A stretch of DNA of 64,000 nucleotides from Craspedostauros australis. Its lineage: Eukaryota; Bacillariophyta; Bacillariophyceae; Mastogloiales; Achnanthaceae. Under the pieces are notes generated by a model, which did no database searches, had not been told where the DNA came from, and worked only from the letters and a program-made list of their open reading frames with translations. The stretch lies in contig JAMXDE010000054.1 of assembly GCA_026770025.1 (NCBI GenBank), positions 248,001-312,000 of the forward strand. Direction: 5' to 3'. Positions within the stretch are counted from its first letter, which is position 1, and the number at the start of each line of letters is the position of its first letter. Of the stretch, positions 3,931 to 44,938 are shown piece by piece. The position numbers were made by a program, and so were the translations under genes.

Positions 3931-6900
3931 TCACAAAATTTCCGTCCCATCATCCAACACAGCCTCACTTTCTGTGTTGGCCTTCAGTGTGTCAGCATCA
4001 CACCACATCTGATGATCCAGCTCCTCCTCCTCTCTCTGCAACTCCTTCTCTGTTCGTTCCTCCTGTGTTTCAGCTGGCGCATAGTGGGTCGCCACGATTG
4101 CAGATGCTGTTGCTTTGCTTGTTGGGTTGGTGTTGGTGTCGGTGTTGGCTTCCGCCTTGATGAGAGCGGCCTCCTTCTTGTCCTTGCGTTGTTTGGCGTT
4201 GTACGCTGCAGACAGCGACGCTTTCACGCGCATGGGGTTTGCGTGCAGTTGTACGTACCAGTCAGTTTTGGTCCTGTTGTCGTCCATCAATTGTTCGTGT
4301 GCTTCGTGTTCGGATGGCCTGTTTTTTGGGTCCTTCGCGGACGCTTCACTGATGTCCTTCAACTTGTCCGCGATGTAGTCTGGTAGTTCCGCTGGTTTGC
4401 GCGTTGTTTTGCTCGCCCAGCCTGGCACTGCGAGTGGAGGGTGTTCGGTTTCGGCGGTCTGGTCTTGTAGCGCTGTGGTGTGATCGGATGGTAGATGTTG
4501 TTGTCCGTCTGCAATGGCTTTGCCGAACGCCAGCCCCTTGCTCTCTGCCGCTGTGCGCCCGAGTTTTCGCGTCTTGTCCGTCTTCCTGAACGATTCGGAC
4601 GTTATCGGCAGCTTGTCGGACTTGTGTGTGTGAACATCGGCAACGCCCAGTTGGTTGATGATCCAGCCGTCCCATTCAGCGCTCTTCACAAGGACGTCTT
4701 CCGTGATGCCAGATGCAGCCACCAACCGCGCCTGGTCATCATCATACTTCACCTCGTGAGTCTGACGTACCTGTTGCCCGTTCGCGCGGAATCGTCGTTT
4801 TGGTGCGCCAGGAAGCGACGTGATGTTGCCTTGGAGGGTCTTTGCGTTGACCAGTACCGTGGTGGTACCCGCGATGTTACCGGCTTTCAGTGCAAGGAAG
4901 AGTTGGAACGGGGTCTTGATGTCCTTGCCACTTTGCACGTATTTTCGCAGTACACGGGTGATGTACGCGAAGTGGGTGTCCAGCATGCTCTTACCAGTTT
5001 GGGCCTCTGTGTAGATCCACGCGATGATTTTGGCTGCTTTTCGTGTCACAAGGTTCTTGTTGAGTACCGATGTGATCAGTGGGATGTGCTCGTGACTGGC
5101 AAAGCAACACGCGTTATCGCTCTGTAGGATGATCTCAGTCACGGATGGGTGAATGTCTTTGACCTTTTTTTGCACGATGTCAAGCAGTGCACCAACTTGA
5201 AGTGTGTCTTGTGTCGGTCGTCCACCGACCACAATGTCGATGAACCGATAAGTAAAAATGTCATTGCGACACGTGATGACCATCGCCCCAAGCAGTGACA
5301 TTCCCTTCTTCCCCCAATATTCTTGTTGGGCTTCGCTTTGGCCTGTCGGTAGAATTTTTTGCTTATGGTCAAGCACCACATAGGCTCTTTCAGGCTTATC
5401 ATTGAGTTCGGATTGATAAAAGGCGATTTGTCGGAATTGAACTTTTGCACGCACTTTGTGAGCCATGTAGTTAACAATTTCGTTGGCGAATCCCGGCGCC
5501 GCCGCAAGCATTGATTGCAATTCGTCCTTGTGTTCTGCGAGTTCGTTGTCCTTAAGCATTTTGACAAAAGGGACAAAACGATCGTTCACAAATCGCATTG
5601 CTGATCCACAACGGTTGCATACTTTACGCGCGGTGTTCTTCTTGCTCTTGTGCTTGTTGGTGCGTGGTTTGCGTTGATTGGAGGATGTGGTTGGTGCCTT
5701 CTTCTTCTCCTTTTTGGTGGTGAGAGCGAACGCGGCCGAATGCATGGGGTCGTCGCAGTGAAGCTGCATGTGGGAGGCGGTGAATTCCCATTTGAGGAAC
5801 ACAACAAGCAGTTCGAGTGCATGCAAGAGGGAATCGGCTTTGCGTACATGATGTGCGATGACGTCATCTGGCTCATCGGTATCGTTGTGGCTCCTGTCAT
5901 TGGCATCGTTTTGTTCCTCCCCATCAGTTTCATACTTAGCCTTCAGTAGGTCTACTAGGCGCGAAATTGCCTGTTTGAGTTTCTCCGTCGCCATCCAGAA
6001 GTAACTCTCGAAGGAAGAGAGGCCCGTCTTGATCTTGCTTTTGCGTGTTAGTAGGTTGGTCATGGTGGTGAAAGCAGGCATTCCCACTGGGCGGTTGGTC
6101 GTAGACGAGTACATGTCGAATAGTTGTTCGATAGTCGTGCTTCCTCGATCGAACACCGGAACATTTTCAAATACAACTCCACCATACTGTACCGTGTGAC
6201 TCAACCCTGCCTTATATGTAGTAGTTGTCATGAGGAAGGACACCACGCCAGACAGGTCGCAAGCACACACACGGTACTGGAGAACTCGCTGTGGAATGCT
6301 TTTGCCATGGCTTAACATGTCGTAGTAACGACGCAAGGTGTATGTCTGGCTGGGTGTGATGATGTCGCGTTTGGCAAGCATGCGAGCCTTCTGTTCCTCC
6401 GACAGTGCATGTGTGTGCCTACCCAGAATAGCAGTACACAGTGCAGACGGTGCAGACATGGCCAAAGCAACTCTTGCCGTGCGGGAAGAAGAAGATTCTC
6501 CGAGCAAGCAGAGGGTGTAGAGGTTAGATGCCAACATCGTGGGAGGAAGCTCCACGTTCCCGCGCACGTATGCAATCACCTGTTCCATCTGACAAGTTGG
6601 CACGTTCTCTTCTGGAAGCAGGACAGTCCAAAGTGCAGATGATGTGACACTCCACATCAGTTTGATGTAGCTCCAGATGGTCCGTTCGTGTCGGCCCGCG
6701 AGGACAAATCCTTTTTTTGGCATGAGCTGCAACAGTTTTGGATCTAGGTTAGATCTAAGCGCTGCCATCACACGAACAATGGCATGGCGCCTCCAGTTTC
6801 CCCCCTCCTCTTCCTGATCATGCCCGAACTCGCCTCCTCTCCTGTCCCAGCCAGCGCGCGCCTGTTTTTCGTCCTCGTCAACGTACGTACTGTCGCTGTC

Positions 6901-7503
6901 AATAGACGGATCTGCGTACCCCCCGGCAACAACAGTGTTGCAACGCCGGGGAACCCTCCCTGGCGGGGTAGGCTCGACAGGTGGTGCAACGTCGGCTGCA
7001 GTAGGCGAGGGTGGCGCGTTCACGATAACGCTCACCAAAGTCCCATCGCCGACACCTCGTCCCTCCGAACGCACCTCGACATGGGAGTCGTCGAAGACGC
7101 CTCCGTTGTCGTTGAGGATGTGGACGAACACATGCAGCTCGCGAGCGTGCGCATGCGTACCGTTCGGGACGAGGTTGCCATCCGCTGCATGCATCGGTTT
7201 CACATCGATCACTCGCGTGATGGTGCTCTGCCTCCCCAATACAGCGAATGGCTTGTCAGGCAACAGTTGCTCAGAGGCTGGCAGCAGGGCTCCCTTGGAG
7301 TCGAATGGGTGAGCAGGCATGGGGTGAGCAGAACACAGCTTCTTACGAGGAGAGGGGTTGCCATCCTTGGGGAGGGCTTTGTCAGCAGCAGAGGTAGGCA
7401 TGGTGGAGTTGTTGCTGGAGAGTAGTGCTGTTTGCTTGTTGGATGTGATGAACTGGTCTGAGAGGAAGTGAGGTAAGGAGAGCACGGGATGAAGGCCGAT
7501 CAT
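3931..7503 (-). CDS. Transposase-like protein, DDE-type, unclassified
   Basis: A 1190-residue single-exon frame with an ATG start, lying between the 165-bp inverted repeats, so it is very probably the transposase of that element. The N-terminal 230 residues are low-complexity and acidic. The middle holds helical regions, an acidic insert and a Lys-rich patch followed by CNRCG, a possible half zinc finger. The likely catalytic core runs from about residue 700 to 850: Asp712 in a VVLDHK context, GKKGMSLLGAM strand, Asp796 in LQSDNACC, and Glu833 in TEAQTGKS followed by Asp842 in MLDTHF. This acid-acid-E/D layout with a GKS-x-LD-x-HF segment is typical of eukaryotic cut-and-paste transposases, but I cannot assign a superfamily. 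The C-terminal 300 residues are charged and Ala/Lys/Glu-rich. No internal stop is present, so the copy may be intact. Confidence 0.75.
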   Translation of the reverse strand: MIGLHPVLSLPHFLSDQFITSNKQTALLSSNNSTMPTSAADKALPKDGNPSPRKKLCSAHPMPAHPFDSKGALLPASEQLLPDKPFAVLGRQSTITRVIDVKPMHAADGNLVPNGTHAHARELHVFVHILNDNGGVFDDSHVEVRSEGRGVGDGTLVSVIVNAPPSPTAADVAPPVEPTPPGRVPRRCNTVVAGGYADPSIDSDSTYVDEDEKQARAGWDRRGGEFGHDQEEEGGNWRRHAIVRVMAALRSNLDPKLLQLMPKKGFVLAGRHERTIWSYIKLMWSVTSSALWTVLLPEENVPTCQMEQVIAYVRGNVELPPTMLASNLYTLCLLGESSSSRTARVALAMSAPSALCTAILGRHTHALSEEQKARMLAKRDIITPSQTYTLRRYYDMLSHGKSIPQRVLQYRVCACDLSGVVSFLMTTTTYKAGLSHTVQYGGVVFENVPVFDRGSTTIEQLFDMYSSTTNRPVGMPAFTTMTNLLTRKSKIKTGLSSFESYFWMATEKLKQAISRLVDLLKAKYETDGEEQNDANDRSHNDTDEPDDVIAHHVRKADSLLHALELLVVFLKWEFTASHMQLHCDDPMHSAAFALTTKKEKKKAPTTSSNQRKPRTNKHKSKKNTARKVCNRCGSAMRFVNDRFVPFVKMLKDNELAEHKDELQSMLAAAPGFANEIVNYMAHKVRAKVQFRQIAFYQSELNDKPERAYVVLDHKQKILPTGQSEAQQEYWGKKGMSLLGAMVITCRNDIFTYRFIDIVVGGRPTQDTLQVGALLDIVQKKVKDIHPSVTEIILQSDNACCFASHEHIPLITSVLNKNLVTRKAAKIIAWIYTEAQTGKSMLDTHFAYITRVLRKYVQSGKDIKTPFQLFLALKAGNIAGTTTVLVNAKTLQGNITSLPGAPKRRFRANGQQVRQTHEVKYDDDQARLVAASGITEDVLVKSAEWDGWIINQLGVADVHTHKSDKLPITSESFRKTDKTRKLGRTAAESKGLAFGKAIADGQQHLPSDHTTALQDQTAETEHPPLAVPGWASKTTRKPAELPDYIADKLKDISEASAKDPKNRPSEHEAHEQLMDDNRTKTDWYVQLHANPMRVKASLSAAYNAKQRKDKKEAALIKAEANTDTNTNPTSKATASAIVATHYAPAETQEERTEKELQREEEELDHQMWCDADTLKANTESEAVLDDGTEIL

Positions 7504-32354: not shown

Positions 32355-33909
32355 CCAACTCACGAAACCATCAAGTTACCTCTGTGCACCAAACCTCACC
32401 ACTGGATGAATGCGACACAATCATGAACATCGTGTGGACATGTGTTAACTGGTGGCTGGGTCTCATCCACAATCGGTACCGGCGAACTGTCGCTGCCGCT
32501 TGTGCATGCAATCACACATGTTGCCGTGCTTTCTCTCTGCACACGAAAAAGCACGTTGGCTTGTGTGTGTGTTTGACTTGGTGAAATCTTGCTCACATTT
32601 TGACACGAATCACAAAGCAGTCGAACTGGTCGTTGACATGCAATCGCGACTGTTTTCGTCATCCGTGAACGATGTCTTCGTGTAGTTTTTGTCGGTCCCG
32701 CGAATGTCTCCGAATGAAATGTCGCACATAAATGTTACGGCAAATAATCAATTAAATGTATTTTACGAAGTGATACAACTTGAAGTGGCCCAAGAGATGG
32801 CTGACGTGGCAGAGAATGGTCATGACTGCCACAACTCAAGTTCGTCAGTGACATCGTGTCACTTCGATTTGTTCTTTCGGTTACTGGGTGTGCAGGTCTG
32901 CTCTATTTCGTCTTGTGTTTGCGCGTCTTCGGCGCGTGCGTGTGTGAGAGAGGAGAACAACAACGAGCACAAAAGGGATTGGAGTGTGTCGCTCGACAGA
33001 ATGTGAAAGGTGATGCCGCCACGTGAGCCAATTTCTTTCGTGTTGTTTAGCCGTGAAGGGTCATGTTCTGGCATACATGCTGGTGCTCCAGTCGCTCCTC
33101 TGGTTCGTTCAATGTTGGGAACATGGTTGTCGTTCCTGTTTCTGGAGGCAGTAGGGTTGATGCATGCCTGACGCCGTTCCTGCTCCCTGTTGCGCCATGA
33201 TGAAGTATAGAGTGAGTAGTACGGAGCCATGATGATACCAAAGGGAGGTAGCGCTGGACGAGATTTTATGTTCTGGTCCAGCTTCACAGGATGTCTGGCG
33301 TTTGGCGAAACCCCTGAACTCCAAGAAAGCCTGCCCAGAGTGGAAACGGGAGGTACCGAACTCATCCTGGCTCTATCATCGTCCAGGACGGCATTCTGTG
33401 CATCGGTTTCAGGATGTACTGCTGACTCGATTCCCTTGAATTCGATCTATCCTTGGAGCCACCGCGTCGAATCTTTTGAGAGAAGGAGACAATTCTCTGC
33501 GAGATAGATCGTATAATAGGTCGTAAAGCACCAAACATCAACGCTATCGCAAGGAGCCGACATTGCCGTGCTGATATCTTCGCTCCAGTGCACTGCTTCG
33601 CTGCGCTGTGCCTTGTTTGTGGTTGCGGTTTTGGATGTGTGTGCGCAGTGTCTGTTGATGTTGACGTTGACAGGCGAAAGAGAGACCCAGAAATGTGCTC
33701 TGTCGTCGCCTCATGCCTTGACACAAAATGTTCGGTCGTATCCGCGTTTCCTATTTGTCAATGATAGCGACCATGGACAAGAACAGCGTTCCTCTTCAGC
33801 ATTCGTCCACTTTTTGGCGCACTTTTTGGTTCTGTTGCCTCCGTGGTTCCATCGCCGCATTCGACAGACACGCGCCTCGTGTGCACTCCATCGGATCCAA
33901 CAGCAGTCG
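32355..33909. other. Intergenic, no supported gene
   Basis: Only short overlapping frames. A near-copy of the recurrent 10-mer (ATAGGTCGTA) is at 33517-33526. Confidence 0.45.
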
Positions 33910-33954
33910 CAGGGAGTTGTCGGAAAAGGAGAAAATCCAACTTTATCTGTCGGA
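33910..33954 (+). repeat. Harbinger left end: CAG target duplication plus TIR
   Basis: CAG at 33910-33912, then GGAGTTGTCGGAAAAGGAGA and onward to CTGTCGGA at about 33947-33954. Pairs with 39919-39963. Confidence 0.8.
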
Positions 33955-34303
33955 ATCGGCAAGACTAAAACGCAACAAAGAAGCTGAACAGTTTCTTGCA
34001 CCCATCGTGCTGTTTTGCTACTACTGAATTATCGCTAATGAGGTACTTGATCAGCCCTCTCCTTGTTTGTTTCTGTTTCTGTTGTTTTCTCGTTGGTGGC
34101 ACCATCTCTTCCAGGGAGAATGCAAAGCTCTCTGCGTTGTGGTTTGGGATGGTTGCTCCTCTCTTTGTGTTGTTGTTGTCGTGCTTCCTGTGTTGTTGTT
34201 GTTGTGCTTCCTGTGTTGCTGTTGTCGTGCTTTCTGTGATGTTGTTGCTGTTGTCGTGCTCTCTTGTGTTGACGCACCCAGGCTGGTGCGGTGTGCTCTC
34301 ATT

Positions 34304-36402
34304 TTATGCGTGCTCTGTTCGCCCATCTGTGGACACCACGCTGCCACTCAATCCGCCAGTTCCACTGCCGCCTGCACCCAAATCGCCCACGCGGCTGCGG
34401 ATCACATCATCACGGCGTGGGGCATCTTCATCGTTGCGGGGGCGCACACTTCCAGTCAGGCCCACCATCTCCATCTCGATGGTGTGCGTGGCAACACTCT
34501 CCTGGCTGCTGGATTGGGAGGAACTGATGGCGGCATCGGGGATGCTCCCACTGGGAGACCGCAGGCCAGGATTGGCAGCTGCCATGGCCTCCAAGTTCCG
34601 AGCCGTGCGCAGCTGCTCCTCGAGCACCGCCATGCGCGAGTTGGCACGAAACTCGCGCGCAGCAACTTCGTTGCGCATTTGCGCAAACTTCGCTGTCGCT
34701 TCGCGCTCCAACTGCGCCTTCGCTTGGGCATCCATATGAGAGCGCTCTTTTGCTTGACGCAGGAGAGCCTCGCATTCGGCACGGGTCTTCCGGGCTTCCT
34801 CGTGGGCCTGAGCGATGCGCGCTGCAGCCTCGCGTTCCATCTGCTGCCGCATGGCGTCCATCTGCCCAGTGAAGTGGTTGGTGGCAGGAGGAGTCGCGAA
34901 GGCGCCATGATTGGGGCTTGGAGATCCAAATGGAGCAGGCTGCTGACCACCAGCTGTACCACCATGAGGCCGAGGTGGCATTGGGCCACCAAATGGATGG
35001 GCAAAGCCTGCTGCTGGCACAGTTGCAGGCTTTGGAGGCATGGCTGAAGAGAAGGCACGGACAGATCCGTCCAACCCCTTGACGCCGCGACGACCGACTG
35101 TCCCGAACTGCAGCTGGTTGTGATGCTCCTGGAAGAAGCAGAATGTGACCAAAGAGGTCGTGCCGAGGTAGTTCTCGACTACCTCGAAGTTGGTGTCTTC
35201 GAGCTCCTTCGTCAAGACGTTGCGGAAGAGGCTGTCGATCTTGCGGGGGAGGTTGAAGTGGCAGGTGACGACGAGCTCTCCTGCTTCGTCAGTGACCTTG
35301 CGAGCGAGGTCCTGAAAGTAGTTCTTGGCAGCAGCAAGGCTGGTCGAGAAGCCAGCATCATAGCCATAAACCCCATAGATGCATTCAGCTGTAAAATACA
35401 TTCTTGGTACCTTGTACGTGAGCTTGAGTGTCCATCCTTCATCTTCTGTGCTGAGTGTCACTGATTCTGGATCCACTTTCGGGTCAAGGACCACAAACAC
35501 GTGAATCCCCTCGCGATAGCGACCATGTCCACTGGCAGCTGTGAGCGGATCGAAGGCACGCTCTGTGAATGAACCCAGCTTCACCATGTCCAGAGCGGGG
35601 CTCATGGCGCGATCAACAGTTCTCAACCCCAACGACCCCATGGCATCCACAATGCCCTTCTCGTTGTTTGTTGCTTCGCGCTTTGTTGTTGTGGTTGGTG
35701 CTGGCGCTGGCGGCTTCACATCTCGGACAGGGGGTCCATGAGAGCCTTGTACTCCACGACGAGGCATAATGAATGGCGGGGTAGCCTGAGACAGATCGTC
35801 GTCGACGAATCCTGAGTCGAGGTCCAGGCTGTCTGAAGATACAGCAGAGCCGTCGCGATGAGGAGGACGAGTAGGAAGGTAGCTCTCGTCGTCGTCCGAA
35901 GAAGAACTGCGGTCCACACTATCAGCAGGAGACTTGTTGGCATTGGCACCTTCTGCTGGTCTGTAGTTGATGCGGATATTGAATTGCTTTCGCAACTCAG
36001 AGAGACGTTCTGTCGACTCCAGACCGCAAACCTTTCGGAGAGCAGATCCAAATCCTGGACATGGCAAGACAAAGCAGATGTTCGTGAGTACAGAGTTCAT
36101 GATCAGCATTCATCGCAGCCAGTGATCTCAATGCACTCAGCAGCAAGCACAATGCAATGGAACGCACCTTTGCCGGTCTCAAGGAACTTGAGCAGACGTT
36201 TCCAACAGTTCAGGTAGTTCTTCTTCGTGTTCTTCTCGGAGTAGAGGCTGTGCCACTCGACGTGTGACCCCCAAAAGTTGGAGAAGCCTTCCTTGGTCGG
36301 TTGAAAACGAGGAGGATCAGCGATGAACCCTTTGATGATGTACGCTGCGTGATCGCCGGATGATGACCACCTTTGAGCTTGAACAACTTTGTTTTGTGCC
36401 AT
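34304..36402 (-). CDS. Harbinger accessory protein, putative Myb/SANT-like DNA binder (two exons)
   Basis: Model: exon 1 36402-36168, intron 36055-36167 (GTGCGT...CAG, phase 1), exon 2 36054-34304; 661 residues. The first 80 residues have spaced aromatic residues in a helical setting (RWSSSGDHAAYIIKGFI, NFWGSHVEWHSLY, KNYLNCWKRLLKFL), a weak Myb/SANT or MADF-like pattern. The middle (about residues 250-430) is a mixed alpha/beta region with LVVTCHFNLPRKID. Residues 480-590 are an Ala/Arg/Glu/Gln-rich coiled coil, and the tail is Ser/Gly-rich. In known Harbinger elements a separate Myb-like protein carries the transposase to the nucleus and binds the ends; position inside the TIRs suggests the same job here (inference). 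It could instead be a captured host gene. Confidence 0.7.
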
Positions 36403-36839
36403 CTTGGAAGTGATCTGAATTGTGGGCTTGTGGTAAGCACCATCAATGCAGCAGATGCTACGGACATGGCAGCACACACAACTTGATCAACACGGAGCAT
36501 GGCATCACACAATTGATCGATCGACTGTCGAATCAATTCAAACAATCGAGGTAGGAGCAACGTAAGAACCTACTGGAAGCGCTGCAGACTGTCGCATCCA
36601 TCATTGGCTCTTTCAAGCAGCGAAACACACAGAATAGAACAAGCTGCCTCGTACATGACGACATGAGCTGCCAAGTTCCTCTTTGATTCAGCGTTGGCTT
36701 CACTCGTGGCTTCCATTTGCCTTCCGTGGGAGCACAGTCGGATTGGGTGAGCGTGATGGCATTTGGGGGGCAAATTCAACTTCATGTGGATGAGTCCGCC
36801 AACTCTCAATGATTTCCTCATGTCTCGATAGTTCTGCAT

Positions 36840-37120
36840 TTCCACTCCGACAACAACAAAATAGGAACCGACGGAAGCGTTTTTCGCGGGGCAAGTACCG
36901 TGAATTCTCCGACAAAAGCGTGTCTCAATTCCCACGCATGAGCCAGTATCAATTCACGTAGAAATCAGATTTAGGTTCAGTCGGAGTTACGACTGCTCCG
37001 GATCTCATTCCGACGGTTTCTAAAGCGTTATTTTTGATAGATATTCTAGTCTTGTCGGAGAAAAACTGCGAAAAACATAGTTCGCGTCGGACACATAAAG
37101 CCTACTTGTCGGATGTGTTT
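36840..37120. promoter_or_regulatory. Cluster of TCGGA/TCCGA motifs between divergent Harbinger genes
   Basis: The five-base motif occurs at 36846, 36908, 36981, 37009, 37055, 37087 and 37109, on both strands, several times as TTGTCGGA or CTCCGACAA. The same TTGTCGGA/CTGTCGGA words make up the element ends. The region lies between the divergent accessory and transposase genes, so it may be a shared promoter or internal binding site. Confidence 0.5.
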
Positions 37121-37415
37121 TTGGGGCATGCGTGCAAAACGGGTTCTCGTCATACTATCACGATCGCGTGATCCCGGAATCAATCATGCCAATGGCACGT
37201 TGATCTCGTGATGAGACAATCGGGGTCGTGGGCGCGCGTTGATGGGTTCAACGGCTCTCCAACCTGATGCTGACGCGCACAACTGGCCCGAGCGTGTTGA
37301 CTTGGCCACCCACACGAACATGATTCGAATCCAGCGCCACATCCCTCACGACAAAAATCGCCTCTGCGATTCCGAGATTGCCACAGGAAGAAATCCAATG
37401 ACGTGAAATCGGTGC

Positions 37416-37418
37416 ACG

Positions 37419-37456
<38 letters not shown>

Positions 37457-37457
37457 C
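37416..37457. repeat. (TC)n(AC)n compound microsatellite
   Basis: About eight TC units followed by about ten AC units, upstream of the transposase gene. Confidence 0.9.
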
Positions 37458-37774
37458 CTCACTCTCATTCTCGTCCTCTTCTTGATGCAACACATGATCA
37501 ACATCACACCAGCCCGAACCTCGGTATGCACATCCCATCATGGCACAGCCTCGTCCCCGCAACCAGAGCCAAAGTGGGGTAAATCGGGCGAAGCAAGTCT
37601 TCTCCGACAACAATTCAAGTGGAGGGGCACGAACAGTGTTGGGCCAGCACAAGCATCCACAAGCAAAAGCTGGCAGCAGTTTGCTTGAGAGCAACAACAA
37701 GGCACAGCACATCGAATGGCAGGGACTGCCACTACCACATCTCTCTACGACAGCCTTCATTCTACAGCAAAGCG

Positions 37775-38765
37775 ATGGTAAATGGCATCTACGACAATCG
37801 GTATGGAATCGGCAGCGTCCAAGACTTCCTCGATCTGGCACGGCACATCCTCCTCACCCCTGGGCAGTGCATCACCAATCTGCAGAGCCGGGCAGATACA
37901 TTCGGAAAAGACTTTGCCGTTGCATTTGGGGTTTCTCCCCATCTCTGCGCTCTTCTTTGGGAGCACACACAGCGCATACAGCCTTTGCGCCCGATACATC
38001 TTCTCTGGAGCTTGTACTACATGCGGCACTACCCATCTGTGCGCATGGCATGCCTGTTTCTCAGAACAACAGACAAAACACTCAAGCTGCATGTGTGGCA
38101 AGCCATCAAGGCTGTCGCAGCCCTGAAGAACGAAGTGGTAAGTCAATGCGAGTGCTTGTGGTTTCACAGTTCAATTCGATATCTCACAAGCTCATCCATT
38201 TGCGCCGATTGTTCCCCTTTGACACTACTCTGGATAGATTGTCTGGAACGCTAGATACCAGGGGGATAAGAACAGGACATGCCTTGTCACTGTGGATGGC
38301 ACGGATTTTTCAATCAACGAACCAAGCCCATTCGACCGCAAGTGGTACTCCCACAAGTTCAAGTCGGCCGGAATCAGGTACGAGATTGCAGTCTCCATCC
38401 AGAGGGGAGATATTGTCTGGATGAATGGTCCATTCCCTTGCGGACGGTATCCAGACTTGAGGATCTTCCGCTCTCTATTGAAAGAATACTTGGATGAAGG
38501 TGAAATGGTGGAAGCTGATCGTGGGTACCGTGGCGATGATGCTGTCCGCACTTCAGATGACTATGTTACAGAGGCGGAGAAGCATGCCAAAAGCCAGGCT
38601 CGTGCGCGTCACGAGACAGTGAATGGCCGCTTCAAGACGTGGAAGATCTTGCAGAATCGTTTCCGGAACGACCTCATGTTACACAAGCATGTGATGAAAG
38701 CGGTGGTCACCATCACACAGCTTCAAATCGAACATGGGAGCTCCCTATTCCAAGTGCAGTACTAG
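37775..38765 (+). CDS. PIF/Harbinger (IS5-type, DDE_Tnp_4) transposase, two exons
   Basis: Model: exon 1 37775-38137, intron 38138-38237 (GTAAGT...TAG, phase 0), exon 2 38238-38765; 296 residues with this start. Joining the exons gives a smooth EVIVWNARYQGDKNRTCLVT and the catalytic core: Asp141 in VDGTDF, Asp215 in EADRGYRG, Glu247 in ARHETVNGRFK. All three acids of the DDE_Tnp_4 family are present and the length is close to the family's 300-400, so it looks intact. The N terminus is uncertain: a second frame opens at 37540 (MAQPRPRNQSQSGVNRAKQ), and a good acceptor (TTCATTCTACAG) at 37767 could join an upstream exon, but I found no matching strong donor in phase. Confidence 0.85.
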
Positions 38766-38928
38766 TCCACAGATATGCCTCAAAAATGTTGGAGAACTCG
38801 TGATCTCAAACGCAGCCTCTGGCATGGAGAGCGAGATTAAATTCCATGAAATAAACAAGTAGTAACTTAGTGCACCTTCACTGTTGCAATATAGCTGTCA
38901 TTGAATGTACCATGGCCTTGCCGAGTAG

Positions 38929-39534
38929 TCACACCATGCCTTTCTGAAACTGCGAAGTGAGGCGACAATTATTGGAAGAGTTGGACGCGAACGAGCACGA
39001 AGCACAGAATAGCACCGTAACGATGTTGCCATTTGTGACGGATATGACGAGAGATTTTCTCGCAGCCCAATCAAGCACAATGGACAGCCAAGGGGAACCA
39101 ACAAAGACGCCACCATTTCCATAGAGTACGCATGGCGTTCCTTTGTTTTCAAAGCTGTATGACCCAGCAATGTGAGCGTGTGGACCCGACATATGCTGGG
39201 CGCCGTGCACTTGCATGATATAGACAAGCTATGGCTGGACAAGGTATGCGCCGGCCGTCGGCTTCAATTTCAATTCATTCAACAGGGATTCGTATTCAAT
39301 CAACCTTGATCCATGACTTCCCTTGGGTCTGCGGTTGTGAACATCGCAACAAAACGAATGAGAGAGATAGTAGGAGTATGGTGGCATGGCGACTGAGAGC
39401 TTGTTGGAAGTCGGACCAGCTGGGGTTTGTGTTGCATCTACATTCTGCGATGCTGTCATGAGATCCCTCACAGCCAGCACCACAGGCAATCCTTCTGTTA
39501 CAATCCAGTTGTATGGCATCGTTGAGAAGGTCAA
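38929..39534 (-). other. Possible third Harbinger gene, two adjoining frames
   Basis: Two minus-strand frames follow each other, 39534-39229 and 39216-38929. They read like real protein: the first has PYSYYLSHSFCCDVHNRRPK and LIEYESLLNELKLKP, the second HMSGPHAHIAGSYSFENKG and LVISVTNGNIVTVL. They are separated by a stop and about 12 bases, so a short intron, a frameshift or chance must be invoked. They converge with the transposase gene. No family recognised. Confidence 0.3.
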
Positions 39535-39918
39535 TGGTATTGGTCAGGAACAGTAGTCACAGCTCATATTCTGGGTGATGACTTGATCTTCTCTGTGGCA
39601 GTTGATGTCGTGCTGTGATGAATTGAGACAAGCCAAAAGCGGCGCACCACCACATCAACGAAAATGCCGCTTGTGATGTTCCAGCCATCACGAGAAAATG
39701 AGATCCACGCAGGAACAACAGAAGCGCCACCACCACAAGAACCCGCCGTTGTTGTTGGGGACACAGCAACCAGTCCCCTCGCAGGGACAGCACCCTCGAT
39801 CAATCACTTTCGTGAACCAATCCGAATCACGAATGAGTTTGCTGAGGAAAAATTCAAATGTCAGTATTGGGTCGTATTAGTCAATCGAGGATTCTGACTG
39901 GCATGTTTGGCGATAGAC

Positions 39919-39963
39919 TCCGACAGAAATAACTCCATTTTCACTTTTTCCGACAACTCCCAG
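39919..39963 (-). repeat. Harbinger right end: TIR plus CAG target duplication
   Basis: Reads TCCGACAG at the inner side and TTTTCCGACAACTCC at the outer side, then CAG at 39961-39963. Confidence 0.8.
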
Positions 39964-40123
39964 AGTGAAAGGGAGTTGGAGAGCCGGAGAGTCAGGCGAT
40001 TTGCGAGCCATGGCACTTCGCTGGGGCTTGGCATCGCGTCCAGACGAGTAACCATGATGCGGATTCTCTGCTGCGCAGCAGCGTTGCTTTTGGTGATGCC
40101 CATACTCATAGTAGCAACGTACG

Positions 40124-40171
40124 ACCTCCAGGTCGCAGTTGATGCACTCACGATAACACTAGTTGTGGAGT
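40124..40171 (-). repeat. 48-bp repeat, inverted identical copy at 49725-49772
   Basis: The reverse complement starts ACTCCACAACTAGTGTTATC and ends GCGACCTGGAGGT; it matches 49725-49772 base for base. The first 21 bases are the terminal motif of the decayed repeat. Confidence 0.85.
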
Positions 40172-41570
40172 GTTTTTTGAGTTTTACTCGTGATGAGTCG
40201 TGATAAAGTAGACTAAATTAGAGCACACCCAAAACCATCCAAACAACTGCTTATGATGTTATATCTCAACAACGCACCATTTAAAATTAAAACTAGACAG
40301 TTCATTCGGACGCTTGGCTATCGTTTATTCTGAATATCTTAGTTAAATTTGTATGAACTTTATTTTTAATGTCGTTTTGGCTTGCTGTCTGTCAGGTGGT
40401 GGGTGCAAAAAATTCTCGATGGCACCATGCTGCCCTACCTTCAGCACCCATGATCATCATTATCATCCCTGGCATTTTCACAATCTGCGCACCACACTGG
40501 CTCCGGATACCCCCCATCTATCCACTCCATGAAGATCCTGCGCAGATAGCCGCATCTCATACTCCAAACTGTCCCTGCACTGAAACGCAGAATTTTCGAA
40601 CACCCGATTCCGACACGGATGCCGTTCGGATTTGGATCCGTATCTCGTCGATACGATCCTTGCAGCTCCTTCACATGCCCCTCATGCGTTCCCACATTCT
40701 CTGGCGACACACTGATGTGTTCAGAATGGGTGGGGCGCTCATACCTCCAAAGGTGCACCTCCATGTGATGATGCCATCATGATGTTTTTCCGACACCCAA
40801 AAAAATCCCTTTCGTGTGCATCCCAGGCTGCAGCCTCTTCCAGACCGTATCTGCGCAGGATACTTCGCCATGGCCATCTTGAGTTGATTCCTAACACATC
40901 TTGAATGGGTGGTTTGGCGATATGGGTGACTTTTCAATGGCACCCATCACCAGCGAAGTCACGTGATGTGTCCGCCGCCACCCGCCAAAAAACTCTTGCC
41001 CGCCACTTGTTTCTTGCGGAGGGCACCTTCCAGGCCACCCCCGACCCTCAAACTTCGTGTGCATCTTCACCGTATCCTCTTGGATACGTCTTGCCCATCC
41101 ATGGTCGTTGGAATGGCCTGTGCATTCCAGGCAGAGACCATATCCAATGAGCATATTTTCCTCCGAATCGTGCCGTGTGCGCGTGGGCCTGCCACGGCCC
41201 CAAATAAGCCAAGATGACATCCCGCTCTCGCTCATCCACCAAACTTTCCATGGCGGTTCCGCCTATGCCCTCAGATCTTGCACTGGACCGCTGGTTGTGG
41301 CAGTGCCGTCGATGCCATTCGACAGCGCTTGTGGAGTTTTGTTGTGTTTCTCCATTGTCGTGTTGTTGTGTTGTGTTTGGTGTTCTCAAACAGTTTTTGC
41401 TGTTGGGGGCCATGGAGATTAACCACAATTCTACCAAATGCGCCCATCAATGAGAACACTTTGCGAGTCCCGAATTGCACCTCCATTCCACAACGACACA
41501 GCGAAGGCACAAAATCCTCCTCACAAAATGGACAACGGAAACATTGCGCATCTGCGACGAGCTGCTGTTG
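40151..41570 (-). mobile_element. Decayed repeat element, copy 2
   Basis: Same family as 2407-3914, in opposite orientation, starting 190 bp beyond the Harbinger right end. The match is clear over about 1.2 kb. Shared landmarks include a GTTGTTGAGATATA near one end, a GATGATCATGGGTGCTGAGG-like block and protein-like pieces (CTGH, WARRIQE, TKFEGRGWPGRCP). Frames are interrupted, so it is probably dead. The far end is not defined; a weak terminal-motif match is at about 41875-41893. Confidence 0.6.
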
Positions 41571-42123: not shown

Positions 42124-42391
42124 ACACAGATACACTAATTAGCAAGAGTAACCAGAAGTTTGGCATGGTTACAACACGATGGACAATGGTGAATAGCACC
42201 ATTAGTGGAGCCAAGAAGTAGAAAACAGGAAGATGATGAGCTCTTATTGATGAGCTCATAATCTCAACAAACTTAACTTTGTAAACCATCACTTCAAACA
42301 AGCACACACAATAACACAGTTCTATCAACCTTCACCAACATTGGACGTAGTTGTATCATCCCGCAACCACTGAACTCTTCACCTCGCAAGC

Positions 42392-44938
42392 ATGCTGCGC
42401 GCTGGTGACTGTGTGAAGGTGGCATCCCACCAGAGCTCAAGCGGCAGGGTCCATGACCTGGGCGTATGTCATGTTGATTTTGCAATGAAGCAGACCACGG
42501 ACGGCGCTACAGTCAAACGCAATGGGCCTCTTGCACCAGGAGAGGTGGCAATGGTCATGGTGACCCCAGTGATGGGGCAGAGCCGAATGTATGTTGTTCG
42601 CGAGGATCTGTGCACACCACACAGCCTCGCTACCTTCGCACGGACTCGCACTGCTGGAGGCCTTGCTAAGCCTTCCCTCCTTTCTCCCCAGCATCACTCC
42701 GTCGCTGCCACGCGTGTCAACAACAAGGCTAAGCCCCCCACACCATCCCCAACTACCACAGAATCGCAAGAAGCCAAAATCGCCGCTTTTCTCGAGGTCT
42801 CGCGGCGTCAGAAAGCAACAGCAATCGCCCAGCTCACGAACCAGATGAAGAAAGGCGCGAAAACAAAAGGATGGTTGCGAAAGGATGGAGGGCATAGTAT
42901 TGCTAAGCCTGGTAATCCTAGCAAGCGCCTTGACAAAGAAGACAATCGGAACTACACTGTTCTCTATTTCAATTTGGGTGGGATTCCTGAACATGCAGAG
43001 TTGATCGCCCATGCATGGGGTATCAACCGCACCACAGTGGGGCGCAACATTGTGAAATTCCAAACGGAGACGCTCGAATGCAAGAAGCGAAGTGACGCAG
43101 GCAGCAGCATCTTCACCTGCCCCATCAAGCAACGACAGTACTTCACGCAGCGCGCAGCCTTTGAGAAACAACTACGTCTTCGACATCCAGAGCAACAGTT
43201 CAAGAACGACGAAATTGCTTCTGCCTATGCCTCTGCTTCGCCGGAAGAGCTGGCATCCGCAAAAGCGCTGGCTGATTTGTGGTTGGAGCGTGGTCCCTTC
43301 CTGCAATTTGAGCTCCAGGATGTGTTGCGACGGTGCAATGGCGCAATCTCGTGGGACAGAATTGCATGGAAACTGGCAGGCAGCGGAAACCCGCAAGTCG
43401 TTGGTCCGAAGTGTATTCGCAAATTCGTCATGGGATTGGAAGGCAGTGAGTACCGTTCTACAACAATACTCCCTCTGATCAATGGCACCACTACAGCAAA
43501 GCGCGACATCTGGGCTCAGGACTTCTGTGTGTTCTGGGAATCAGCTGAGCTGTTTGAGAATACGCAAGTTGTCCTTGTCCACATGGACGAAAAGTGGTTC
43601 TACTCCATTGTCGCTCGCATGCATCTGAAACATGTGCCCCAGATGGGAGTTAAGCCTGTGAAGCAGACTGTGCATCACAAGTGTCACATTGACAAGACCA
43701 TGGCAATTGCATCAACAGCATTTGCCCCAACAAATAACTGTTTTGCGAAAGGAGGAAAGGCGTATAAGGTGAACTTCGAACGTGTTGGGCGCATGGTCCG
43801 AGCGCAGAAGACCACGTACAAGCGAACTTGGGTCTCGCCGACCAAGTACAAGCACCTTCCTGATCCCGAGAAAATCTCTCGCAAGAAGGGTGAACTGTAC
43901 TTCCAACCACTGGAAATCACGGGCAGCAAGGAAACAGATGGTCATCGTGTTAAGCCCAAGCCGAAGTACAGCCTCAAGAAATTCTTCCGCGAAAAAGAAC
44001 TCCCCGCACTGGATTCGCTCGCCAGCAAAATCAAGGCCGAAACCGGAAAGAACGTGGTGATTCGGTACCAGATGGATGGCGCAGGGCCACACAGAGACAC
44101 GGAGCTACTTAGATTCATCAACAAGGAGTTCGACAGTCGCGGATGGCACTTACGACTGCAACCACCAAATTCTCCCATCACGAATGTGAAAGACGATGCG
44201 ATATTCCCAGCGATGTCAAAACACGTGTCAGCATATCAAGGTGAGCACCATGGAAGCCGATTGCTTACCACTGAGGCATTGTGGAATGCTTGTGGAACCT
44301 GTTGGAAACAATTCAAGCTGGACAAGGTGGCTAGCGCGTATGTTCGCCACCATCAGATTGCCTACGCAATTTGTGCTGCAAAAGGAGGTGACGAATTTGT
44401 GACGGAGCGCAAGGGACTGCACATGAATGTGCGGAAACAAACGTCCACGGAATTCGACAAAGAGGGCAACAAGATCGGCGTTACCGTGTCTCACACGGAC
44501 TTCGTGTTGGAGGAGGATGAGGCTACCCGCGCGACCACCAACAAACCAACTGCAACAGACAACAAAGGCAAATCAGCTGACTTCAAATACGCCAAGCCCG
44601 ACATCAAAGGTATGTACGATGATGCGCTCAAGGTGATGGCTGTCAGTGGACTGCAGTGCCTGAAAACGAATCTGCCAACAACCAGCAGCCTCATTCCGTT
44701 GCTGGAGAAGCAAATCGTTGCGACAACCAGAGCCAACGAGGAGGCTGAGCAACAGAAGAAAGACGAGAAGAGAAAGAAGCAACCCAGCAAGAGCAAAGCC
44801 GACATCATTGAGCCTTGCAACAACAACAGCAAAGCCAAAGCAGCACCCACCATGAACACATTCGAAGTGGCCATGTTCGTTGGCAAGGACGAGCATCACA
44901 GCAAAGCAGAGCAGGATACCAACACAGCAGAGATGTAG
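42392..44938 (+). CDS. Mariner-like transposase, plant-type DDD
   Basis: An 848-residue single-exon frame. The N-terminal 150 residues are basic and probably bind DNA together with a helix-turn-helix at about 205-240 (HAELIAHAWGINRTTVGRN). The catalytic domain has Asp399 in HMDEKWF, Asp562 in QMDGAGPH and Asp601/602 in TNVKDDAIF, preceded by LQPPNSPITN, which is the plant and protist mariner-like element signature; D562 to D602 gives DD39D. The first two acids are about 162 residues apart, suggesting an insertion relative to most mariners. The C terminus is Lys/Glu/Ala-rich. No internal stop, so the gene may be intact, but no convincing terminal repeats were found around it. Confidence 0.85.
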   Translation: MLRAGDCVKVASHQSSSGRVHDLGVCHVDFAMKQTTDGATVKRNGPLAPGEVAMVMVTPVMGQSRMYVVREDLCTPHSLATFARTRTAGGLAKPSLLSPQHHSVAATRVNNKAKPPTPSPTTTESQEAKIAAFLEVSRRQKATAIAQLTNQMKKGAKTKGWLRKDGGHSIAKPGNPSKRLDKEDNRNYTVLYFNLGGIPEHAELIAHAWGINRTTVGRNIVKFQTETLECKKRSDAGSSIFTCPIKQRQYFTQRAAFEKQLRLRHPEQQFKNDEIASAYASASPEELASAKALADLWLERGPFLQFELQDVLRRCNGAISWDRIAWKLAGSGNPQVVGPKCIRKFVMGLEGSEYRSTTILPLINGTTTAKRDIWAQDFCVFWESAELFENTQVVLVHMDEKWFYSIVARMHLKHVPQMGVKPVKQTVHHKCHIDKTMAIASTAFAPTNNCFAKGGKAYKVNFERVGRMVRAQKTTYKRTWVSPTKYKHLPDPEKISRKKGELYFQPLEITGSKETDGHRVKPKPKYSLKKFFREKELPALDSLASKIKAETGKNVVIRYQMDGAGPHRDTELLRFINKEFDSRGWHLRLQPPNSPITNVKDDAIFPAMSKHVSAYQGEHHGSRLLTTEALWNACGTCWKQFKLDKVASAYVRHHQIAYAICAAKGGDEFVTERKGLHMNVRKQTSTEFDKEGNKIGVTVSHTDFVLEEDEATRATTNKPTATDNKGKSADFKYAKPDIKGMYDDALKVMAVSGLQCLKTNLPTTSSLIPLLEKQIVATTRANEEAEQQKKDEKRKKQPSKSKADIIEPCNNNSKAKAAPTMNTFEVAMFVGKDEHHSKAEQDTNTAEM

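Follow-up and report, generated by a model that had tools for sequence, protein, structure and literature searches.

The window analysed here is a 64,000-nucleotide stretch of the genome of the diatom Craspedostauros australis (C52:248001-312000; 74.8 Mb in 90 contigs). It contains an element of 6,048 bp (33913-39960), read here as a transposon of the PHIS superfamily, which is flanked on either side by the trinucleotide CAG and carries two divergently oriented genes: a transposase gene on the plus strand and a second gene on the minus strand. Related copies elsewhere in the genome fall into the window copy's own subfamily and a sister subfamily. The features are given below in window coordinates; ratios of nonsynonymous to synonymous substitution rates (dN/dS) are for the window copy against sister copy C35, a comparison between subfamilies.

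33910-33912, no strand: left target site duplication, CAG (from the sequence and the paired-copy check)
33913-33957, plus strand: left terminal inverted repeat, with TGTCGG at element positions 6 and 36
34304-36054, minus strand: second gene, exon 2 with the stop codon, encoding an acidic/serine-rich linker, a conserved central domain and a coil-like C-terminal stretch (the last named by eye)
36055-36167, minus strand: predicted intron of the second gene, 113 bp, GTGCGT...GTCCAG; the donor GTGCGT is also in the sister copy
36168-36402, minus strand: second gene, exon 1 with the start codon, encoding a conserved N-terminal domain of about 79 amino acids, a candidate DNA-binding domain
36847-37112, no strand: seven CCGACR/YGTCGG hexamers in the intergenic stretch, forming an array of which every member is retained in the sister subfamily
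37604-37609, no strand: an eighth CCGACR hexamer in the intergenic stretch, one that the sister subfamily does not retain
37775-38137, plus strand: transposase exon 1, 121 codons from the start codon; dN/dS 0.145
38138-38237, plus strand: transposase intron, 100 bp, GTAAGT...AG, with the same position and length in the sister copy
38238-38765, plus strand: transposase exon 2 with the stop codon, encoding the DDE catalytic core (D141, D215, E247; PF13359); dN/dS 0.061
39916-39960, minus strand: right terminal inverted repeat, with the motif at positions 6 and 36 counted from the right end
39961-39963, no strand: right target site duplication, CAG (from the sequence and the paired-copy check)

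The two ends match at 34 of their 42 outermost base pairs and form the longest inverted repeat listed by a repeat search within 33500-40400. An exact search of the 74.8-Mb genome for the 15-base end gives 63 occurrences, against none for the reversed control, so the ends are not a product of chance. With the leftmost 101 bp as query, 36 genome matches were recovered: six reach at least 98%, one stands at 85% and the remaining 29 range over 84-90%, the majority of these 29 belonging to the sister subfamily. A right end was found for 30 of the 36 and for none of the other six. One pair, C8:888530, has a mismatch in its right end and was left out of the duplication check, leaving 29 pairs; each of the 29 is flanked by an identical 3-bp duplication. 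A sequence-only reading of the window had described the CAG duplications and the 42-bp inverted repeats with 34 matches much as they are found here; it had named as a check a genome-wide search for copies with the same ends and duplications, and as evidence against the element the finding of copies that end elsewhere, and the end points coincide in the 29 paired copies. Lone ends were also met with, a right end at C2:266500 and an exact end at C57:60228. Most of the checked pairs (26) span 6.03-6.08 kb; three are longer (11.3, 13.0 and 15.3 kb) and none is shorter. The long pairs, at C6:2674722, C23:588093 and C39:587490, exceed the usual length by about 5.3, 6.9 and 9.3 kb and probably contain other insertions. 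Short non-autonomous derivatives (miniature inverted-repeat transposable elements) were sought as exact 15-base ends facing each other less than 6 kb apart, and none was found in the genome; with up to two mismatches allowed there were 219 matches (including the 63 exact ones) against 205 for the reversed control, and such derivatives were rejected, for want of any excess, at this sensitivity.

Insertion is strongly selective for a trinucleotide. The 29 duplications comprise CTG (11), CAG (10), CGG (3), CCG (2) and one each of AAG, CAA and CAC, so that 26 fit CNG (21 CWG and five CSG) and three fit neither; triplets of the form CNG make up 4.7% of the 150-bp flanks (P=8e-32). C occupies the first position in 28 of 29 cases and G the third in 27; outside the duplication, no position among the 12 to its left or the 12 to its right rises above 0.21 bits. 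At least five of the 29 insertions match an uninterrupted paralogous site at 98-100% identity, with a single triplet across the junction (C7:1053533, C51:297246, C11:649358, C10:1272521 and C16:206174). The joined flanks of the 29 sites were searched against the genome as a single query and 40 of 432 candidates were scored; five is therefore a lower bound. Open frames across the 29 empty sites cover 58 to 99 of 99 codons, a measurement made without a control, from which no claim of insertion into genes is drawn.

Removal of the 100-bp intron yields a transposase of 296 amino acids that matches DDE_Tnp_4 (PF13359) over positions 1-154 of 158 (E=2.8e-13) and DDE_Tnp_1 (E=3.2e-7); all three transposases of alignment A2 match PF13359. 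Residues D141, D215 and E247 are invariant columns across three transposases of this genome and are presumed, from known motif contexts, to be the catalytic triad, which bears out the proposal of an IS5-type transposase whose catalytic acids are restored by splicing. Similarity to the sister copy drops upstream of the start codon at 37775. At 86% identity or more, 31 of 31 rows for exon 2 are free of stops, and at least 150 places in the genome are related to the exon (150 of 350 candidates were scored, and all 150 matched). A PDB search listed no solved structure for the transposase, and no relative was confirmed among 77 pattern stretches in viral contigs or 297 in prokaryote genomes.

The second gene, also foreseen from the sequence, runs from a start codon at 36402 to a stop at 34304, with the predicted 113-bp intron, and encodes 661 amino acids. 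When a 204-residue central portion was used as query, no stop appeared in any of the 30 rows at or above 83% identity; one C46 copy below 83% has a stop, and a more distant family has three copies with a single stop. The N-terminal domain recurs in more distant families at 56%, 41% and 32% identity (alignment A4). In the family with 66% transposase identity the transposase has a related second gene next to it, as it has, judged by the N-terminal domain, in the 60% family. A likeness of the central domain to the Hsp20/p23 sandwich was an idea formed by eye and was set aside: it was unsupported by search, and a single-sequence model was poor (predicted local distance difference test score, pLDDT, 36.4).

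By the measure of dN/dS, both genes are under purifying selection. The transposase has a dN/dS of 0.093 (synonymous divergence, dS, 1.26) and the whole second gene 0.202 (dS 0.96). Constraint is tightest in transposase exon 2, followed by the central domain (0.067) and the N-terminal domain (0.120) of the second protein. Each of the four gap-free copies in the window subfamily keeps both reading frames open.

Comparison of copies bears on the age of the family. Eight of 19 compared sister copies (C51, C2, C35, C26, C7, C5, C4:3294831 and C1) differ from one another by 0-2 mismatches, and sister pairs outside this group differ by up to 161. The comparison covers the final 3.7 kb with unread bases subtracted (3,237 remain for the printed pair), the sister copies having been read in part, C35 excepted; it takes in 19 of 21 sister pairs, C23 and C39 having been dropped for nested insertions and three later pairs and C8:888530 excluded. 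Near-identical copies between short target duplications indicate that the family has been jumping recently, and on this evidence the transposon family has moved recently. The burst belongs to the sister subfamily, not to that of the window. Within the window subfamily, identity among the four gap-free copies is 97.4-98.7%, and the window copy is 97.4-97.8% identical to the other three (gap columns excluded in both cases; C6, with 3,363 unread bases, and C2:266500, C37:622162 and C10:1064877, each with one end not found, were omitted). The suggestion of a recently active element thus holds for the family; the window copy is intact and need not be among the youngest. Its differences from the copy at C9:1448970 are clustered at window positions 34513-35513 and 38713-39513, with as many as 23 in 200 bp next to stretches that have 0-3 in the same length, which suggests a mosaic produced by recombination or gene conversion among copies.

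A short sequence motif is common to the ends and to the region between the genes. In all 26 copies examined, each end carries TGTCGG at its positions 6 and 36. The wider form CCGACR/YGTCGG occurs eight times in the 1,372-bp intergenic stretch against 1.22 expected, and eight times against 1.02 expected in the sister; in neither did any of 5,000 shuffles reach eight. Seven of the eight align with a motif of the sister despite a regional identity of 58%. The 7-base form TGTCGGA is found four times in the ends and five times in the intergenic stretch, and is absent from the remaining 4,557 bases of the window copy; its intergenic count was reached by 0 of 5,000 shuffles. In the sister it occurs four times in the ends, four times between the genes and nowhere else in the element. 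A check on the choice of motif showed that, among 61 hexamers derived from the ends, GTCGGA is the most enriched between the genes (9 against 0.57). The first four hexamers of the array (36847-37010) read CCGAC and the next three (37053-37107) read GTCGG. Each gene therefore has YGTCGG on its sense strand in whichever half of the array lies closer to it; the eighth motif, at 37604, departs from this order. Given the motif common to the ends and the intergenic array, we infer a single protein, encoded by the element, that binds at the ends and in the promoter region.

The classification of the element follows from its target. Han et al. (2015; PMC4482050) give the targets of the PHIS groups as TWA for PIF/Harbinger, AT for ISL2EU, none for Spy, ANT for Pangu, CWG for NuwaI and C|TNA|G for NuwaII. 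The present element has the DDE transposase alignable over the catalytic region, the terminal inverted repeats and the short target duplication of the superfamily. The duplications include 21 of 29 of the CWG form and none of the ANT form; they are of 3 bp and mostly CNG rather than AT, and the second protein has no YqaJ match in Pfam, which sets the element apart from ISL2EU. With CWG/CNG in place of TWA, "PHIS superfamily, NuwaI-type target" is the more exact label for what the sequence-only reading had called a complete PIF/Harbinger-like transposon with two divergent genes; its account of the anatomy and the genes stands. The class is assigned by target site and protein family.

The element resembles NuwaI in its 3-bp CWG duplication, its PIF/Harbinger-kind DDE transposase, its two genes and its length of a few kilobases, and its terminal repeats fall within the 12-61 bp of that group (PMC4482050). 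NuwaI is described there from 16 animal genomes only, with a Myb/SANT second open reading frame and ends that usually begin GGG; here the host is an alga, Pfam recognises no Myb/SANT domain, both ends begin GGAGTT in 26 of 26 pairs (GGAG rather than GGG), and five of 29 duplications are CSG and three neither. PIF/Harbinger elements in the strict sense (Harbinger3_DR, Ping/Pong; HARBI1/NAIF1) likewise combine an IS5-type DDE transposase with a second gene, but duplicate TWA by definition of the group (PMC4482050), and their second protein is of about 300-400 amino acids with a Myb-like/MADF domain, against 661 here (PMC9710019). Pangu, reported from one heterokont and two algae among others, is alike in its algal and heterokont hosts and in a second reading frame without known motif according to the Results of PMC4482050 (the Discussion places Pangu among the groups with Myb/SANT), and differs in its ANT duplication. 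Harbinger-like repeats have been annotated in the diatoms Thalassiosira pseudonana (PMC2806351) and Cyclotella cryptica (PMC7466962); superfamily label and kind of host are alike, the level at which they were compared. No description of CWG-targeting PHIS elements in diatoms was found among the listings of the open literature searched, subscription papers being mostly outside it.

These observations are best read together as a structurally intact, probably autonomous PHIS cut-and-paste transposon that inserts at, and duplicates, CNG, mostly CWG, a reading to which we give a probability of roughly 85%. The ends, the 3-bp duplication, the target preference, some empty sites, the two conserved genes and the recent multiplication are established directly. 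The IS5-type transposase would cut both ends and join the element to a cut at CWG that is staggered by 3 bp. Binding to CCGACR, twice per end, may fall to the second protein, through its conserved N-terminal domain; like the Myb-like protein of Harbinger3_DR, it would bring the transposase to the ends. In Harbinger3_DR a subterminal 9-bp motif is bound by the Myb-like protein (PMC9710019), and the second (ORF1) protein binds the ends and is needed for nuclear entry of the transposase (PMC2836001, PMC9710019). Both proteins are required in PIF/Harbinger elements, and excision is usually perfect (PMC2836001, PMC9710019). The second protein or the transposase might also bind the intergenic array, coupling the expression of both genes to its own level. 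It is this division of labour between the proteins, and the control of both genes through the array, that we infer.

Several observations weigh against parts of this account. The window copy itself need not be a recent jumper, since it diverges by 2.2-2.6% from its gap-free relatives and lacks an empty counterpart: its joined 300-bp site matches only its own two flanks in the genome. The second protein has no Pfam match above cut-off, Myb/SANT included; a PDB search with its N-terminal domain gave nothing convincing (best E 0.054) and one with the central domain listed no structure. The model of the N-terminal domain consists of three helices at low confidence (pLDDT 53.6) and gave no fold match; a Myb/SANT-like fold is possible. 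The linker is weakly constrained (dN/dS 0.424). The wider motif is short, occurring 73 times in the 57,952 window bases outside the element and twice in the rest of the element outside the ends, and the intergenic count of TGTCGGA in the sister was reached by two of 5,000 shuffles. Lastly, co-expression of the Ping proteins in yeast left their location unchanged (PMC2836001), so that nuclear import by the second protein is not general.

Other explanations differ in how much of the evidence they can accommodate. That the locus is an old domesticated gene pair rather than a mobile element would agree with the purifying selection on both genes, yet it is refuted by 29 dispersed copies with their own flanks and duplications, by empty sites for five copies and by near-identical copies on different contigs, and its probability is close to nil. 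Membership of PIF/Harbinger in the strict sense, with CAG a chance or atypical site, would account for the transposase family, the two-gene layout and the 3-bp duplication, all of which are alike; on the target it is already refuted, with TWA at none of 29 sites and CNG at 26, and it is very improbable. A further proposal is that the second gene is a dispensable passenger, for instance a cargo for host interaction or anti-silencing. The protein has no recognised domain and is longer than the 300-400 or so residues of PIF second proteins (PMC9710019), as a passenger might be; against this, more distant families of this genome also pair their transposase with a related second gene, and the second protein is required in known PIF/Harbinger elements (PMC2836001), and we regard the proposal as unlikely.

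Of greater weight, and still a minority view, is the possibility that the intergenic array consists of sites for a host transcription factor and resembles the terminal motif by coincidence. The CCGAC core is short, and the distant element L111, with three matches in 4,858 bp, has no such array, though its end hexamer TTTCCC is over-represented; set against these are the top rank of GTCGGA among the end hexamers, the absence of the 7-base form from the rest of the element and the retention in the sister of seven of the eight wider-form sites. A bolder extension of the transposon reading, which we hold to be doubtful, would make the second protein a new, non-Myb/SANT family of DNA-binding proteins that reads CCGACR in the ends and in the intergenic control region, with the copies titrating it and thereby throttling or releasing both genes, and with a CWG-targeting PHIS lineage radiating in algae independently of the animal NuwaI.

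More distant families in the same genome are less completely delimited. L111 and L112, at about 60% transposase identity, have left ends that begin GGGAGC and duplications that fit CTG and CAG, one G/C at the edge making it undecidable whether they are of 2 or 3 bp. The 66% family was seen by right ends only, in two copies, with TTG and CTG; the 55% family likewise, with CTG and CCG if the edge is shifted by one base; in the 50% family the end was not reached. The hexamer TTTCCC, from the right end of L111, is in excess in that element's intergenic stretch (10 against 0.79), which may parallel the CCGACR array with a different motif. The sister copy at C7:1053533-1059574 sits in a stretch that is repeated in many places near transposase exons of the 50% family, one of which adjoins it at C7:1060968; apparently one transposon is nested in another.

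Elsewhere in the window, an open frame of 1,190 amino acids (3931-7503, minus strand) has no Pfam match and is repeated in the genome; one such repeat hosts the insertion of sister copy C10:1272521, one of whose empty-site matches falls at window positions 4903-4996. An open frame of 854 amino acids (42374-44938, plus strand), which starts 2.4 kb to the right of the element, has no Pfam match at E 0.01 and by eye resembles IS630/mariner-like transposases (HMDEKWFYS, YQMDGAGPH). The genome as a whole holds 88 matches to the silicon transporter family PF03842, many nearly full length, which fits a diatom host; by impression, the number looks unusually high.

The element is therefore a known kind in an unusual and well-preserved variant, of which the CWG target outside animals and the motif common to the ends and the promoter region are the most interesting features. 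Han et al. left the function of the second reading frame in PHIS elements open and regarded the making of differing targets as a matter for study (PMC4482050). Intact two-gene elements, near-identical copies, a CWG target outside animals and a candidate motif in both ends and gene-control region offer a test bed. If the element proves active, a transposon tool for diatoms is conceivable; the host faces a standing source of mutation in the many recent insertions at this common trinucleotide.

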